This document shows positions 40,472-48,616 of a DNA stretch of 64,000 nucleotides, piece after piece (position 1 is the first letter of the stretch; each line of letters begins with the position of its first letter). The DNA comes from Endomicrobium sp. (GTDB taxonomy: Bacteria; Elusimicrobiota; Endomicrobiia; Endomicrobiales; Endomicrobiaceae): NCBI GenBank assembly GCA_031289585.1, contig JAITPF010000037.1, positions 62,001 through 126,000 on the forward strand. Reading direction: 5' to 3'. The notes beneath the pieces are model-generated. The model did not search any database. It saw only the letters and a list, made by a program, of their open reading frames with translations, and was not told where the DNA came from. A program made the position numbers and the translations under genes.

Positions 40472-40930
40472 ATGAAGATTATGGATTTTTTAAGTCAAGA
40501 TGCAATTGTTGTAGATTTAAAGTCGACAGATAAAAAATCGGCGATTATTGAGCTTGTAGAGGTTTTGAAAGATATAAAAAAAATCAAAAAACCTGACGAG
40601 ATTATTGATGTCGTTTTGGAACGAGAAAAGCTTGGTTCTACAGGAATTGGACAGGGTGTTGCAATACCTCATGGAAAAACTGATATTTTGCAGGAACAAA
40701 TAGGAGTTCTTGGAATTTCACGTAAAGGTATAGAATTTAATTCTCTTGATGGTGAACCGGTTAACATAATTTTTCTTTTGGTTGGTCCTATCGAAGTGGC
40801 GGGTCAACATTTAAAGGCGTTGTCAAAAATTTCTAGACTCTTTAAAGATAAATTTTTAAGACAAGCTATAAAAGATGCAACTACAAAAGAAGACGTTGCA
40901 AAAATAATACAACAAGAGGACGCTTATTAA
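40472..40930 (+). CDS. ptsN: PTS IIA-like nitrogen regulatory/fructose-type protein
   Basis: VLEREKLGSTGIGQGVAIPHGKTDI; IIFLLVGPIEVAGQHLKALSKISRLFKD. Confidence 0.92.
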   Translation: MKIMDFLSQDAIVVDLKSTDKKSAIIELVEVLKDIKKIKKPDEIIDVVLEREKLGSTGIGQGVAIPHGKTDILQEQIGVLGISRKGIEFNSLDGEPVNIIFLLVGPIEVAGQHLKALSKISRLFKDKFLRQAIKDATTKEDVAKIIQQEDAY

Positions 40931-40936
40931 GTATAT

Positions 40937-41105
40937 ATGGATATAAATACGCTTCTTAAAGAAAAAGGCGAAGATTTTAAATTCGAACTTATAAACAAGG
41001 ATGTGGCAGAAAATTACAATTCTAGGAGTATATGGTAAAGTCTTGCTGTGATTGTTGAAACGGCAAGCTTAACCAGAGAGATTTACACGATAGGTTACAT
41101 AATAT
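40937..41105 (+). pseudogene. hprK: HPr kinase/phosphorylase remnant (N- and C-terminal stubs)
   Basis: MDINTLLKEKGEDFKFELINKDVAENYNSRSIW* then, same frame after stop, SLAVIVETASLTREIYTIGY resembling HprK C-terminus; sits between ptsN and rapZ. Confidence 0.65.
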
Positions 41106-41969
41106 ATGATAAAATTATACATAATTTCAGGCATGTCAGGTGCAGGAAAAAGTCAAGCTTTAAAAATATTTGAAGATTTTGGCTTTGTCTGCGTTGATAA
41201 TATGCCTGTTCAAATGATAGCTGATTTTGTTGATATATGTCTTAAAAATCCATGCAAATATAGAAATGTGGCAATAAGTATAGATTCACGTGCTGGAGAA
41301 GCACTTACGTCTTTTAAAGATTTGCTTGCTACATTTATATTAAAAGAGAAAAAAGTAAACTATAAAATTATTTTTTTTAATGCGATTGATTCAGTTTTAC
41401 TCAGGCGCTATTCGGAGACTCGTCACCATCATCCTTTGGGAAAATCATTGCTTGAGGGAATAAGACTTGAAAGAAAAATTATAGACAGGATTTTTACGAT
41501 TGCGGACGAAGTTATAGATACTTCAGACCTTACTATTGGGGAACTAAAAAAAGTAATATCAATACTCACAGGCATTCAACATTCCGGAAAACGGTATCTA
41601 AATATTTCTGTTCTTTCTTTTGGATATAAATATGGATTACCAAATGACGCTGACATAGTTTATGATGTACGTTTTATAACAAATCCAAATTATGTTCACG
41701 AATTAAAGTTTAAAACGGGTAAGGATAAAGCTGTTAAAAGGTATATAGAAAAACAAAAAGAATTCAAGACTTTCTTTAATATGTTCTCAAGAATTATAGA
41801 AACGACGCTTCCGAGATATATTAAAGAAGGCAAAAGCTATCTGACTATAGCAATAGGATGTACAGGCGGACGGCACAGATCAGTTTTTGCTGCCGAAAAA
41901 CTTGCCAAATTTTTAAAAGGTAAAAAGTATAATGTAAAACTTAACCACAGAGATATTTTGCATTTATAA
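41106..41969 (+). CDS. rapZ: RNase adapter RapZ / YvcJ P-loop protein
   Basis: IISGMSGAGKSQALKIFEDFGFVCVDNMP; ETRHHHPL; DVRFITNPNYV; IAIGCTGGRHRSVFAAEKLA. Confidence 0.96.
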   Translation: MIKLYIISGMSGAGKSQALKIFEDFGFVCVDNMPVQMIADFVDICLKNPCKYRNVAISIDSRAGEALTSFKDLLATFILKEKKVNYKIIFFNAIDSVLLRRYSETRHHHPLGKSLLEGIRLERKIIDRIFTIADEVIDTSDLTIGELKKVISILTGIQHSGKRYLNISVLSFGYKYGLPNDADIVYDVRFITNPNYVHELKFKTGKDKAVKRYIEKQKEFKTFFNMFSRIIETTLPRYIKEGKSYLTIAIGCTGGRHRSVFAAEKLAKFLKGKKYNVKLNHRDILHL

Positions 41970-42004: not shown

Positions 42005-42415
42005 ATGATTAAGATTATTGTTATAGCGCATGGTGAATTAGCGCAGGAATTGGTCAATTCTGCAGAAACTATTGCCGGAAAACAACCTAATCTCTATGCT
42101 GTTAAAAGAGATAACAGTGATAGTTTAATTCATATGCAGGAAAAGGTGGGCGATCTTTTGAAAAATATAAATGATGAATATGGAACGTTGATACTTGCTG
42201 ATATGATTGGAGGAACTCCATGCAATGCATCCGTTCCAATGTGTAGATCTTTTAACATAGAAATTCTTTCTGGAGTCAATCTTCCGATGGTGTTATCTGC
42301 AGTATTTTCAAGCAAGAATGCGATAAGTGCTTTAGATTTAGTAGAAAAGATACTGCTTGATGGACAAAAAAGCATAATAAACGTAAAAAAAGCGATATTC
42401 AATAAAATAAAATGA
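42005..42415 (+). CDS. PTS mannose-family IIA component
   Basis: IIVIAHGELAQELVNSAETIAGKQ; TLILADMIGGTPCNAS. Confidence 0.9.
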   Translation: MIKIIVIAHGELAQELVNSAETIAGKQPNLYAVKRDNSDSLIHMQEKVGDLLKNINDEYGTLILADMIGGTPCNASVPMCRSFNIEILSGVNLPMVLSAVFSSKNAISALDLVEKILLDGQKSIINVKKAIFNKIK

Positions 42416-42433: not shown

Positions 42434-42943
42434 ATGCCTATAGTTTTAGTAAGAATAGATGACAGATTATTACATGGACAAATAGTGCAAGGATGGCTGA
42501 AAACGATAGATATTGATGCTTTATTGGTTGTTTCAGATATGGCAGTAAAGGATATAATACAACAGACGCTTATGACTATGGCTGCTCCCAGCAATATAAG
42601 ACTTGAAATCAAAGGTCTTAAAGATGCAACAAATGCAGTTGTAAGTGAACAATACGACAAAGAAAAAGTAATGATTTTAGCATTAAATCCATCTGATATA
42701 TTCTATATGATAGAAAATGGAGCTGTTTTTAAATCTGTAAATGTTGGTGGAATGCATTTTACAAGTGGAAAAAGACAGCTTTTATACAATCTTTGTGTAG
42801 ATGATGGCGATGTAGAAAGTCTATACAGAATATACTGTAAAGGTATTGAATTAGAGGGTCGCGTTCTCCCTAAAGATGAGAGAATAAATATTATACCTGT
42901 AATAGAAAAAGAATATTGGGCAATGTGTAAGGTGGGGAAATGA
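42434..42943 (+). CDS. PTS mannose/sorbose-family IIB component
   Basis: VLVRIDDRLLHGQIVQGWLK; VNVGGMHFTSGKRQL. Confidence 0.93.
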   Translation: MPIVLVRIDDRLLHGQIVQGWLKTIDIDALLVVSDMAVKDIIQQTLMTMAAPSNIRLEIKGLKDATNAVVSEQYDKEKVMILALNPSDIFYMIENGAVFKSVNVGGMHFTSGKRQLLYNLCVDDGDVESLYRIYCKGIELEGRVLPKDERINIIPVIEKEYWAMCKVGK

Positions 42944-45003
42944 GTAAAGTTAAGTTTGTTTTTTGTACACATAATCACCAACCTGTAGGAAATTTCGATT
43001 GGGTTTTTGAAAGGGCTTATCAGGTTTCGTATAGACCTTTTATGAACGTTATGTTAAATCATCCAAAAATAAAATGGAGTATGCACGCAAGTGGAATGTT
43101 ATGGGAATATTTTGCAAGAGAACATCTTGATTATATTAAAAATATAAAGAGTCTAGTTGCAAGTGGTAATCTTGAACTATTGTCTGGTGGTTATTATGAA
43201 CCATTGATGTCCTCGATTCCTGATAGAGATAAAATAGGACAAATAAATAAAATGACCTGCTATATAAAGGATAAATTTGGTTGTGAAGAAGCTAATGGAG
43301 TCTGGCTTGCTGAAAGAGTATGGGAGCCAGGTATGGCTAAAATTCTTGCCGAAAGAGGAATAAATTACACTGTATTAGATGATTCTCATTTTGCATCAGC
43401 AGGTATGGATATAGAAAGATTGAATGGTTACTATACTACTGAAGAGCAAGGATATAGCCTTAATATTTTTCCAATAAGTCAGAAAATGAGATATCTTGTT
43501 CCTTTTGCTGATGTTGAAAACACAATAGAATATTTTAAGTACCTTGTAAAAGAGAGTCCAAATTCAGATCCAGTTGTTGTTATGGCAGATGACGGTGAAA
43601 AGTTTGGTATGTGGCCAAGTACTTATAAACACGTTTACGAAAATAAATGGCTTGAACGCTTTTTAACGTCTTTAGAAGAGAATTCCGATATAGTTGAAAC
43701 AGTGAACTTTTCTGAAGTTTTAAAAATCAAAAAATCATCAGGCAGGGTTTATCTATCGTGTTCTTCTTATTTTGAAATGTCGCAATGGGCTTTGCCAACG
43801 TCTACACAGCAATCTTTTGAAAATGTTATAAATAGATGCAGAGAGGACAGTGAAGTAAAAAGATTTTTACGAGGAGGGTTTTGGAGAAACTTTTTGACTA
43901 AATACGAAGAAGCAAATAATATGCATAAAAGAATGATTTACGTAAGCGAAAAAATAAAAAAGTATATTGACAATAAAAAGCCACATATTGAAAAAGCTTT
44001 AGATAGTTTATATGCAGCGCAATGTAACTGTGCTTATTGGCATGGAATTTTCGGTGGACTTTATTTACCTCATTTAAGGAATGCAGTTTACAATATGCTT
44101 TTAAAAGCGGAAAATCTGTACAATAAATCAATGCTTAAAAGACCTACTTGGAATATTTTTGATTTTAACTGTGATTCTGTTGATGAGTATTTATTTGAAA
44201 GCAAAATGCAAAATATTTATGTGTCTCCGGCGGTAGGGGGGTCAATATTTGAGTGGGATATTTTTCAAATTAATCACAATCTTCTTAATGTATTAACAAG
44301 AAGATATGAGTCGTACCATAAAAAACTCAGGGACAATATAAATAATACTGTAATTGTAAGTGACAATGAATCTGAAGTACAGACTATACACGTTAATGCG
44401 GTAAAAGTAAAAGAGATAAATCTCGATAAGTTTTTGGTTTATGATGCTTATAAAAGAGCATCTCTGATAGATCATTTCTTAGCAAACGATATAAAGCATG
44501 ATGAGTGTATGTTTGGTTATTATGAAGAAAAAGGTGATTTTGTATCTGGTATATATAATGCTTGTGTAAAAGGAGCTAAAATTATTCTTAAAAGGTACGG
44601 TAAAGTCAATGGAAAAAATGTTGAGATTGTAAAAGAAATATCGCCGCTTTCAAACGGTTATGCAGTTGCGTATGAAATTAAAAATGATTCATCTGAAATT
44701 CTTGATGTTTGTTTTGCTCCAGAGCAGGTTTTTGCTTTTTCGTCAAAAGCAGAAGATGATTTTGGAGATTTAAAATCAATTGATATATGGAAAAGATATG
44801 ATGATTATTTTAAAATAGAAGTTGAATTAAAGATCTCATGCAAAAGTGACTTGTTTATTTATCCTGTGGAAACAATTTCAAATTCGGACAATGGATATGA
44901 AAAAACTTATCAAGGGACGGTTGCTGTATTTCTTGTAAAATGTGTCATTAAGCCCAAAGAAGTTAGGAAAATTTCTTTTGAAACAATTGTAAATTTTAAA
45001 TGA
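42940..45003 (+). CDS. GH57 alpha-amylase/4-alpha-glucanotransferase-like (DUF1925/1926-type)
   Basis: FVFCTHNHQPVGNFDWVFERAYQ; GVWLAERVWEPGMAKILAERGI; ADDGEKFGMWPSTYKHVYE. Confidence 0.92.
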   Translation: MSKVKFVFCTHNHQPVGNFDWVFERAYQVSYRPFMNVMLNHPKIKWSMHASGMLWEYFAREHLDYIKNIKSLVASGNLELLSGGYYEPLMSSIPDRDKIGQINKMTCYIKDKFGCEEANGVWLAERVWEPGMAKILAERGINYTVLDDSHFASAGMDIERLNGYYTTEEQGYSLNIFPISQKMRYLVPFADVENTIEYFKYLVKESPNSDPVVVMADDGEKFGMWPSTYKHVYENKWLERFLTSLEENSDIVETVNFSEVLKIKKSSGRVYLSCSSYFEMSQWALPTSTQQSFENVINRCREDSEVKRFLRGGFWRNFLTKYEEANNMHKRMIYVSEKIKKYIDNKKPHIEKALDSLYAAQCNCAYWHGIFGGLYLPHLRNAVYNMLLKAENLYNKSMLKRPTWNIFDFNCDSVDEYLFESKMQNIYVSPAVGGSIFEWDIFQINHNLLNVLTRRYESYHKKLRDNINNTVIVSDNESEVQTIHVNAVKVKEINLDKFLVYDAYKRASLIDHFLANDIKHDECMFGYYEEKGDFVSGIYNACVKGAKIILKRYGKVNGKNVEIVKEISPLSNGYAVAYEIKNDSSEILDVCFAPEQVFAFSSKAEDDFGDLKSIDIWKRYDDYFKIEVELKISCKSDLFIYPVETISNSDNGYEKTYQGTVAVFLVKCVIKPKEVRKISFETIVNFK

Positions 45004-45170: not shown

Positions 45171-45809
45171 ATGACAGAGAGTATAGTTCTTCTTGCATTT
45201 ATTGCAGCTTTATGTAGCACTGATATGACTGCGTTTGGGCAGTTTATGATTTGCCGTCCAATATTTTGCGCTCCTCTTATAGGCTTTTTAATGGGTGATA
45301 TAGGCACAAGTCTTTGGATAGGTATGATAAGCGAAATGATTTGGGTAAATGAAATTCCGATGGGTGTAGCCGTGAGTGTTGATGTTTCTGCAATAAGTAT
45401 TTTATCTACCTTTTGGGTTTGTAAATATTTTAAGGATTCTCAAGAGGCTGCAATATGGGGGTTAATTTTAGCTGTGCCGTTTACATATTTTTACAGAGAA
45501 ATAGATGTTGCTGGAAGAAATTTCAATATTAAACTAATGCACTGGGTTGAAAAAGGAATACAAAATGGAAAATATGGACGTATAAATACAGGTATAGTTG
45601 CAAGTTTATTCTTTTTTGTCTTAAGAGCATTTTTGTTTTATATGTTTGCAATGATTGTTGGCGGATGGATATATGAAGGTATTTATTTGCAATTTTCAGC
45701 GTTTATTCTTGAAGGTTTTAGAAAAGCATGGTATTTGTTGCCTGTAGTTGGCTTTGGAATGGTGATATATAATTTTAGGAATATAAAAATTCAGTTTATG
45801 AGAAAATAA
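45171..45809 (+). CDS. PTS mannose/sorbose-family IIC component
   Basis: Polytopic; RPIFCAPLIGFLMGDIGTSLWIGMISEMIWVNEIPMG. Confidence 0.88.
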   Translation: MTESIVLLAFIAALCSTDMTAFGQFMICRPIFCAPLIGFLMGDIGTSLWIGMISEMIWVNEIPMGVAVSVDVSAISILSTFWVCKYFKDSQEAAIWGLILAVPFTYFYREIDVAGRNFNIKLMHWVEKGIQNGKYGRINTGIVASLFFFVLRAFLFYMFAMIVGGWIYEGIYLQFSAFILEGFRKAWYLLPVVGFGMVIYNFRNIKIQFMRK

Positions 45810-45810
45810 T

Positions 45811-46602
45811 ATGCTTAAGAGATATTCCCAAATGTTTATAAGGGCTTTTTTTATACAGGCGTTATGGAATTTTGAAAGAATGCAAAATATCGGATTTTTG
45901 TTTATATTGAAACCTTTTTTGTATAAAATTTATTTAAATAAAGATAAAAGAAAGGAAGCTTTTTTAAGACATGCAGTATTTTTTAATACGCATCCTTATT
46001 TGGCTAATATTATAATTGCAATTGTTGTAAATATGGAGAAGAAAATAGCTGAGAGTGGGCTTGATGAAAAAGTTTTAGATATAAATATAATTAAGAATAC
46101 TATGACAGGACCTTTAGCTGCAATAGGCGATTCATTGTTTTGGGGAACACTAAGACCTTTAGCATCATTTGTAAGCATATTTATGGTAGTACTTTTTGCA
46201 AAAGCTTTAAACAATAGGTTTGAATCGTATAGTATCTTAATTCCATTAGTTTTTATTGTTTTTTACAATATTGTACATCTTCCAGTAAGATATTGGTTTA
46301 TGTTTATGGGTTTTAAACTTGATAAGGAAAGTATTGTAATGTTGTCAAAACTTGAATTTAAGATTCTATTGGAAATGGTACGTTATAGCGGAGTTGTAAT
46401 TATAGTTGCCACATTGTTTTTATATCTTAAAATTTTTGGATTTGGATCTAATGGTATATTTTTCGGGACTAATATATACGATATATTTGTGTATAGTACT
46501 GTGCTTATTCTTTCGGTTTTTGCATCTGGAAAATTTGGGGCAGTCTTTTTATTTTACGGCATAATATTAATTTGCATTATAATGTCATATTTAGGGATAT
46601 AA
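45811..46602 (+). CDS. PTS mannose-family IID component
   Basis: RAFFIQALWNFERMQNIGFLFILKP; FFNTHPYLANIIIAIVVNMEKK; TGPLAAIGDSLFWGTLRP. Confidence 0.92.
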   Translation: MLKRYSQMFIRAFFIQALWNFERMQNIGFLFILKPFLYKIYLNKDKRKEAFLRHAVFFNTHPYLANIIIAIVVNMEKKIAESGLDEKVLDINIIKNTMTGPLAAIGDSLFWGTLRPLASFVSIFMVVLFAKALNNRFESYSILIPLVFIVFYNIVHLPVRYWFMFMGFKLDKESIVMLSKLEFKILLEMVRYSGVVIIVATLFLYLKIFGFGSNGIFFGTNIYDIFVYSTVLILSVFASGKFGAVFLFYGIILICIIMSYLGI

Positions 46603-46604
46603 AA

Positions 46605-46868
46605 ATGAAGGAAAAAGTTATTGTTGTTTCAAATAAAATGGGATTACACGCAAGACCTGCAGCTATGCTTGTGCAGACTATGACGAGGTATCAGTCCACG
46701 GTTAAAATTTTAAAAGATGATTTTGAGGTGGATGCAAAAAACATTATGGGTGTGATGACTTTAGCTGCTGGGCACGGAAGCGAATTAAAATTCATTATTA
46801 ATGGTCCTGATGAAAACGAAACTTTGTTTGCAATTGAAGGTTTGTTTAAATCTAATTTCAGTGAATAG
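46605..46868 (+). CDS. ptsH: phosphocarrier protein HPr (His15 present; position 46 is Asn)
   Basis: VSNKMGLHARPAAMLVQ; VDAKNIMGVMTLAAGHGSEL. Confidence 0.95.
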   Translation: MKEKVIVVSNKMGLHARPAAMLVQTMTRYQSTVKILKDDFEVDAKNIMGVMTLAAGHGSELKFIINGPDENETLFAIEGLFKSNFSE

Positions 46869-46876
46869 GAGTAAAA

Positions 46877-48616
46877 ATGTTTAACAGAAGAAACATCGTA
46901 TTTAAAGGTATTGCTGCATCACCGGGAATTGCAGTTGGCAATGTTTTTCTCCTTGAGGTTGATGATTTTTGTTTGATTCATAAAGAAATACCTATAAATA
47001 TAAGAGAAGCTGAAAAAAAGCGTTTAAATGATGCTATTGAAAAAACAAAAGCTGAACTTAAAATAACTTATGATAAAATTAATGAAGTTCTTGATAAAAA
47101 TTATGCTCAAATAGTCAATGTTCATCTTTTGATTTTAGCTGACTCGTCGATGAGAAAAGACATTGATAAACTTATAGAAAGCGGAGTTAATGCAGAATAT
47201 GCTCTTTTTAAAGTTATAGATAAAATTATTCGTTCCTTTGAAGCCATAGAAGATGATTATTTTAGAGAAAGGAAACTTGACGTACAAGATGTAGGAAAAA
47301 AAATTCTTAGTAATCTTGTCGGAAAACAAAAAAAAACTATCGCAAGCTTGGATAAAGATTCAATAGTAATTGCTCATAATTTAACTCCTACGGATACTGT
47401 TTCTATAAGAGAAAAATTAGTTAAAGGTTTTGCAACAGATATTGGTGGAAAAACTTCGCATACAGCTATTATTGCGCAAGGGCTTGAAATTCCATCTGTT
47501 GTTGGGTTAAAAGTAATATCTTCGCAGGCAAGAACCGGCGATGTTATAATTATCAATGGAGATAAAGGTGAGATTATCTTAAATCCTACGCCAGAAGTAA
47601 TAGCAGAATATAAAAGAGAATACGATATACAGTTTGCAAAAAAGAAAGAACTTGAAAAATTAAAAAATTTACCAGCTGAAACAATTGATAATCACAAAGT
47701 TTTAATTTATGCAAATGTTGATAATCCCGATGAAGTACAGTCTATCTTAAAAAATGGTGCAACTGGTATAGGTCTTTATAGAACAGAATATATATTTTTT
47801 ACTCGCAAAGCTATTCCATCAGAAAAAGATCATCTTGAAAAATATTTACAAGTTGTGAAAAAAATGTCACCGTATCCGACTGTTATAAGAACTGTAGATT
47901 TAGGTGGCGATAAGTTAGCAAAAATGGGTCTTTTAAATATAGAGCATGAAGAAAACCCTTTTTTAGGTTTGAGAGCTATAAGACTTTGCCTTAAATATCC
48001 TAAAATTTTTATCGATCAATTGAGAGGAATTTTAAAAGCGTCAGCTTATGGAAAAATAAGGCTTATGTATCCTATGATATCTGGGCTTGGAGAACTTCGT
48101 GACGCTAATAAAATCCTTGAGAAAGTGAAGCAGGATTTAAGAAAAGAGCATGTAGAATTCGATGAAGATATGGAAATAGGTACGATGATAGAAGTGCCGT
48201 CTGCTGCGATGATAATAGATGCTATTGCTAAAGAGGTTGATTTCGTTTCAATAGGAACTAATGATTTGATACAATATGTACTTGCTATTGATAGAGTCAA
48301 TGAGAATGTTGCAAATTTATATGACCCTTTACATCCTGCAATTTTAAGATATATTAAAAAGATTATAGATGAAAGTCATAATGCAGGAATAAGTGTAAGT
48401 ATGTGTGGTGAAATGGCGGGAGATCCTTATTATACACCTATACTTATAGGATTTGGACTTGACGAGTTCAGTGTATCATCAATACAGATTTCTAAAGTTA
48501 AAAAAGTTATAAGAAGTATCTATTTCGCAGATGTCAAGAGAGCTGCAGAAGAAATGTTAAAATGTAGCGATAGAAATGAAATTTTAAAAATTATGACTAC
48601 TATTCAAATACATTAA
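46877..48616 (+). CDS. ptsI: PTS enzyme I
   Basis: GKTSHTAIIAQGLEIPSVVG; GIGLYRTEYIFF; IGTNDLIQYVLAIDRVNENVANLYDPLHPAIL; VSMCGEMAGDP. Confidence 0.97.
   Translation: MFNRRNIVFKGIAASPGIAVGNVFLLEVDDFCLIHKEIPINIREAEKKRLNDAIEKTKAELKITYDKINEVLDKNYAQIVNVHLLILADSSMRKDIDKLIESGVNAEYALFKVIDKIIRSFEAIEDDYFRERKLDVQDVGKKILSNLVGKQKKTIASLDKDSIVIAHNLTPTDTVSIREKLVKGFATDIGGKTSHTAIIAQGLEIPSVVGLKVISSQARTGDVIIINGDKGEIILNPTPEVIAEYKREYDIQFAKKKELEKLKNLPAETIDNHKVLIYANVDNPDEVQSILKNGATGIGLYRTEYIFFTRKAIPSEKDHLEKYLQVVKKMSPYPTVIRTVDLGGDKLAKMGLLNIEHEENPFLGLRAIRLCLKYPKIFIDQLRGILKASAYGKIRLMYPMISGLGELRDANKILEKVKQDLRKEHVEFDEDMEIGTMIEVPSAAMIIDAIAKEVDFVSIGTNDLIQYVLAIDRVNENVANLYDPLHPAILRYIKKIIDESHNAGISVSMCGEMAGDPYYTPILIGFGLDEFSVSSIQISKVKKVIRSIYFADVKRAAEEMLKCSDRNEILKIMTTIQIH

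Follow-up and report, generated by a model that had tools for sequence, protein, structure and literature searches.

Along with a remnant of the kinase gene hprK, the window (the whole 64,000-nt stretch of DNA analysed here; the hprK remnant, its two neighbours and the PTS genes named below lie on the + strand) contains a ptsH gene at 46605–46868 that encodes an 87-amino-acid HPr with Asn at position 46. How did a symbiont come to lose both HprK and its target serine, and does the sugar phosphotransferase system (PTS) around them still work? A preliminary description had proposed a coordinated loss of serine-phosphorylation control of sugar uptake, with phosphoenolpyruvate (PEP)-dependent transfer retained. 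Its reading of the protein proved accurate: the PF00381 profile matched the window HPr with 94.6 bits (cut-off 23) over profile positions 2–80 of 81, the active-site His15 is retained inside the motif GLHARPA, and residue 46 is Asn, encoded by AAC at 46740–46742 in the context DAK-N-IMGVM. In a phmmer comparison with HPr structure chains, Asn46 aligned without gaps to Ser46 of Bacillus subtilis HPr, whose residue-46 region reads NLKSIMGVM in the wild type (2FEP) and NLKDIMGVM in 1SPH. The window protein thus resembles B. subtilis HPr (2FEP, 1KKL) in family, length, His15 motif and the region around residue 46, but carries Asn in place of the Ser46 that marks an HprK-regulated HPr and that HprK phosphorylates in B. 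subtilis.

The window HPr belongs to Endomicrobiellum, a genus of flagellate endosymbionts represented here by 42 genomes and 33 HPr genes. In the other 32 HPr rows of the genus, 15 columns do not vary, and position 46 is the one column among them at which the window HPr departs. General decay of the protein was rejected, as it has four private residues, one of them at an invariant column, and a dN/dS of 0.17 to 0.22 against two relatives (G015 and G034); the departure at position 46 is therefore a specific change. The Asn46 call depends on one base in a single metagenome-assembled genome (1.28 Mb, 86% complete; the window is part of a contig of 130 kb), and AAC is one base away from AGC inside an A-rich stretch (GCAAAAAACATT), both of which would fit a consensus or assembly error in an organism that truly has Ser46. 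Such an error is nevertheless most improbable, given that the frame is intact, the remainder of HPr looks normal, as do the PTS genes, and the error would have had to fall by coincidence on the one invariant site in a genome from which hprK has been deleted.

The site of hprK lies between a ptsN-like EIIA gene (PTS_EIIA_2, 152 amino acids, 40472–40930; PF00359, 124 bits) on its left and rapZ (287 amino acids, 41106–41969; PF03668 and PF22740) on its right. The same two genes enclose an intact 921-nt hprK in G015, G034, G049 and G052; here, only a 175-nt gap separates the end of the IIA-Ntr-type gene at 40930 from the start of rapZ at 41106. Within this gap, an N-terminal remnant (40938–41036) opens with MDINTLLKEKGEDFKFELI, equivalent to HprK residues 1–19, followed by non-homologous codons and a stop, and a C-terminal remnant (41037–41105) contains SLAVIVETASL, similar to NLAVLVETASL near the HprK C terminus. 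What survives amounts to about 19 codons of the N-terminal end and 20 of the C-terminal end, and approximately 750 nt are missing between the two pieces. The N-terminal piece was detected by tblastn with the HprK of relatives as query (E = 7e-6) and scored 87, where 500 shuffles reached 43 at most; the C-terminal piece also exceeded all 500 shuffles, by a narrow margin (47 against a maximum of 41). The upstream hprK remnant noticed in the preliminary description is thus real, and it arose by a deletion in place.

A second hprK elsewhere in the genome was considered and rejected, since neither an alignment of the HprK of relatives, which matched the remnant alone across the whole genome, nor the Pfam C-terminal domain (PF07475) found one in the 86%-complete assembly. 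The PF07475 search missed the B. subtilis control and its negatives are weak alone, so the in-place remnant carries the argument; in place of the functional hprK that an HprK-regulated HPr requires, the assembly, at that completeness, yielded only this remnant. As an observation on the enzyme itself, most Endomicrobiellum have GKSAIGKSE as the P-loop of HprK (for example, L079, L068 and L080), and most outgroups have GKSGIGKSE or similar.

The PTS genes have fared differently from hprK. Their order in the window is ptsN-like IIA, hprK remnant, rapZ, mannose-type IIA, IIB, GH57 glucanotransferase, IIC, IID, HPr and Enzyme I (EI), and the components of a complete mannose-type PTS are all present as intact, Pfam-matched open frames: besides HPr, these are mannose-type IIA (42005–42415; PF03610; dN/dS 0.19 against both G015 and G034), mannose/sorbose-type IIB (42434–42943; PF03830; dN/dS 0.18 to 0.27), IIC (EII-Sor, 45171–45809; PF03609; equal in length to that in relatives), IID (45811–46602; PF03613, 147 bits) and the 579-amino-acid EI encoded by ptsI (46877–48616; PF05524, PF00391 and PF02896; dN/dS 0.14 against G015). 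In comparisons with G015 the sugar-PTS proteins gave dN/dS values of 0.14 to 0.36, and in those with G034 values of 0.17 to 0.31; EI, HPr and IIA/B/C/D are under purifying selection. Because all components are intact, PEP-dependent transfer through this PTS should work, with the phosphoryl group predicted to pass from PEP through EI and His15 of HPr to IIA, IIB, IIC and IID. The PTS of Escherichia coli and other hprK-free enteric bacteria likewise works without HprK, but their HPr still has Ser46, so this serine can be kept where HprK is absent. Across the genus, IID was found in 26 of 42 genomes. The GH57 alpha-amylase/4-alpha-glucanotransferase gene (42940–45003), which lies within the PTS operon, flanked by IIB and IIC, is represented by decayed pieces in G051, in the corresponding position, and in G041, close to it (loci L085 and L144), and it is missing from the IIB–IIC interval in G015, G034 and G054.

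HPr matches were obtained in 85 of the 96 genomes of the class, and the relatives matched by the window HPr are Endomicrobium/Candidatus Endomicrobiellum metagenome-assembled genomes and termite-gut genomes, from a group whose flagellate endosymbionts have been described (PMC11257099). Asn46 occurs in one of the 33 HPr genes of the genus, that of the window; the other 32 all have Ser46, always encoded by AGC or AGT, one transition away from AAC or AAT. Canonical HPr proteins of the other genera of the class also have Ser46, and the exceptions outside the genus are Lys46 paralogues in four genomes. Because Ser46 is carried by all 32 other members and by canonical HPr throughout the class, an ancestral Asn46, which the preliminary description had left open pending phylogeny, is rejected, and Asn46 is derived on the terminal branch and private to the window genome. 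The Lys46 paralogues (G013, G012, G064 and G067; loci L122, L124, L117 and L123) are second HPr-family proteins with His15 and the motif ADAKKLF, and in three of the four genomes they adjoin a miaB-like gene. Two further divergent HPr-like paralogues, L119 and L120 (in G011 and G090), have the motif GLHLR and Ser46 and adjoin a gene for a Cys/Met-metabolism PLP enzyme-like protein; a role as an HPr-like partner in sulfur metabolism is possible.

Loss of hprK is not peculiar to the window genome. On a lepA+rapZ+IIA tree, its absences in the genus require at least six changes, and several hprK-less lineages adjoin strongly supported sisters with an intact gene; the backbone of this tree is moderately supported, and G054 (sister to G034, hprK intact) and G041 (sister to G044, hprK intact) are firmly placed. 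The lesions differ as well: the window genome has an internal deletion of approximately 750 nt, G051 one frameshift, G054 several breaks, and G041 and G031/G032 other deletions. A loss shared by descent with these relatives was rejected on both grounds, the differing lesions and the intervening sisters with intact hprK.

These repeated losses bear directly on whether the loss of kinase and serine was coordinated. Seven hprK-less genomes keep HPr, and Asn46 is found in that of the window only; the other six (G032, G041, G051, G054, and the very reduced G035 and G038) all keep Ser46. The 26 members of the genus that have both HPr and an intact hprK also have Ser46 without exception, so that no close relative combining intact hprK with Asn46 was found. 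At the genus level, the association of Asn46 with hprK loss (1 of 7 against 0 of 26) is not significant alone (Fisher P = 0.21). The closest comparison is G054, a near-complete 1.1-Mb Endomicrobiellum genome in which deletions and frame breaks have likewise disrupted hprK in place and IIA/IIB/IIC/IID, HPr and EI are retained; it differs from the window genome in its hprK lesions, in having a sister (G034) with hprK intact and in having kept Ser46 (AGC). The proposal of coordinated loss is not supported. Because other independent losers of hprK keep Ser46, hprK loss does not drive the loss of the serine; it allows that loss without enforcing it.

We therefore consider it likely that hprK was deleted, that the constraint on Ser46 was thereby relaxed and that Asn46 followed, in an HPr whose PEP-dependent function remains ordinary and working. 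The internal deletion would have removed approximately 750 nt of hprK at the ptsN–hprK–rapZ locus; with no kinase/phosphorylase left, Ser46 would no longer have been maintained, and in this AT-rich endosymbiont genome (32% GC) one G-to-A transition would then have turned the AGC codon into AAC, giving Asn46. The evidence against relaxed constraint alone is that Ser46 has been kept in six hprK-less genomes with HPr, including G054 with its complete mannose PTS. Asn can stand in for Ser at the N terminus of a helix, and for this reason Asn46 is expected to be neutral for transfer through His15; literature searches found neither a source for Ser46 as a helix N-cap nor a report on an S46N HPr mutant.

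Both events fall on the same terminal branch, where the tree cannot order them, and this leaves room for the reverse sequence, in which Asn46 arose first by chance, uncoupled HPr from HprK and rendered hprK useless and open to deletion. We regard that sequence as unlikely: at least five other lineages have lost hprK and, where they still have HPr, have kept its Ser46, so that kinase-first is the route observed, and none of the 26 genomes with intact hprK has Asn46. Loss of the kinase first and of the serine second is also the parsimonious order. An adaptive origin of Asn46, by which losing both kinase and target permanently locked the PTS into an uninhibited state, to the advantage of a symbiont whose host cytoplasm supplies sugar steadily, seems very unlikely. 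Purifying selection on the PTS genes while the switch is gone would be in keeping with it, as would the fact that the regulatory column is the sole invariant HPr column to have changed; however, without hprK, Ser46 is no longer phosphorylated by HprK and nothing is gained by replacing it, Ser46 persists in lineages that have lost hprK to the same extent, and the substitution is not replicated. On the relaxed-constraint account, then, the switch would have been lost through neglect and not by a concerted or selected change. As an HprK-type kinase cannot phosphorylate Asn, the result would be a PTS without an HPr-Ser-P switch, and the ATP-dependent Ser46 switch cannot operate in the window genome.

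What this switch once controlled is a separate matter. A LacI-family (CcpA-type) regulator, the partner expected for an HprK-regulated HPr, was detected in none of the 42 genomes of the genus by a search that found it in B. subtilis and eight other control genomes. Without a LacI-family regulator, the genus also lacks CcpA. Of the preliminary claim, the retained His15, the Asn at position 46, the deletion of hprK in place and the retention of EI and IIABCD stand; that the lost function was control of sugar uptake would, in the absence of a LacI-family regulator, be an extrapolation from Gram-positive bacteria. Many Gram-negative bacteria have HprK homologues, apparently without CcpA, and the role of HprK there is less studied (PMC6916182). 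In G049 (L145), G044 and G048, hprK, HPr and EI are kept and no IID was found; at the G049 locus, no IIA, IIB, IIC or IID was found and hprK is retained. This suggests that HprK–HPr in these three genomes serves something besides sugar uptake.

Outside the class, a distant precedent is an HPr-like protein of Marinobacter lutaoensis (L199), 47% identical to the window HPr, which likewise combines His15 with Asn46 (DAKNIMQVM) and has no hprK between ptsN and rapZ. It differs in belonging to a gammaproteobacterial Ntr-type ptsN–rapZ–ptsO-type cluster, outside a mannose PTS operon. Hpr_kinase_C had no match in the M. lutaoensis genome, in an imperfect search that missed its own B. subtilis control.

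PTS retention is covered by previous work on genome reduction in Endomicrobia, the text of which has no match for the HPr phosphocarrier (PMC11257099). On balance, we lean towards the view that in this endosymbiont the HPr-Ser-P switch has been given up altogether and a working sugar PTS kept, and that its genus, with at least six hprK losses, amounts to a replicated natural experiment, in which the repeated loss of hprK is of greater use than one residue. If this is true, the genus would show how PTS regulation fares within the cell of a eukaryotic host, and the window genome would be an example, in a termite-gut flagellate symbiont, of a control site decaying after the loss of its enzyme. 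Because the relatives have reached differing degrees of genome erosion, they serve to order the loss of a kinase against that of its target site in regulatory phosphorylation, and the contrast between genomes that lost hprK and kept the PTS (the window genome and G054) and one that kept hprK and lost IIABCD (G049) bears on the role of HprK in Gram-negative bacteria that lack CcpA.
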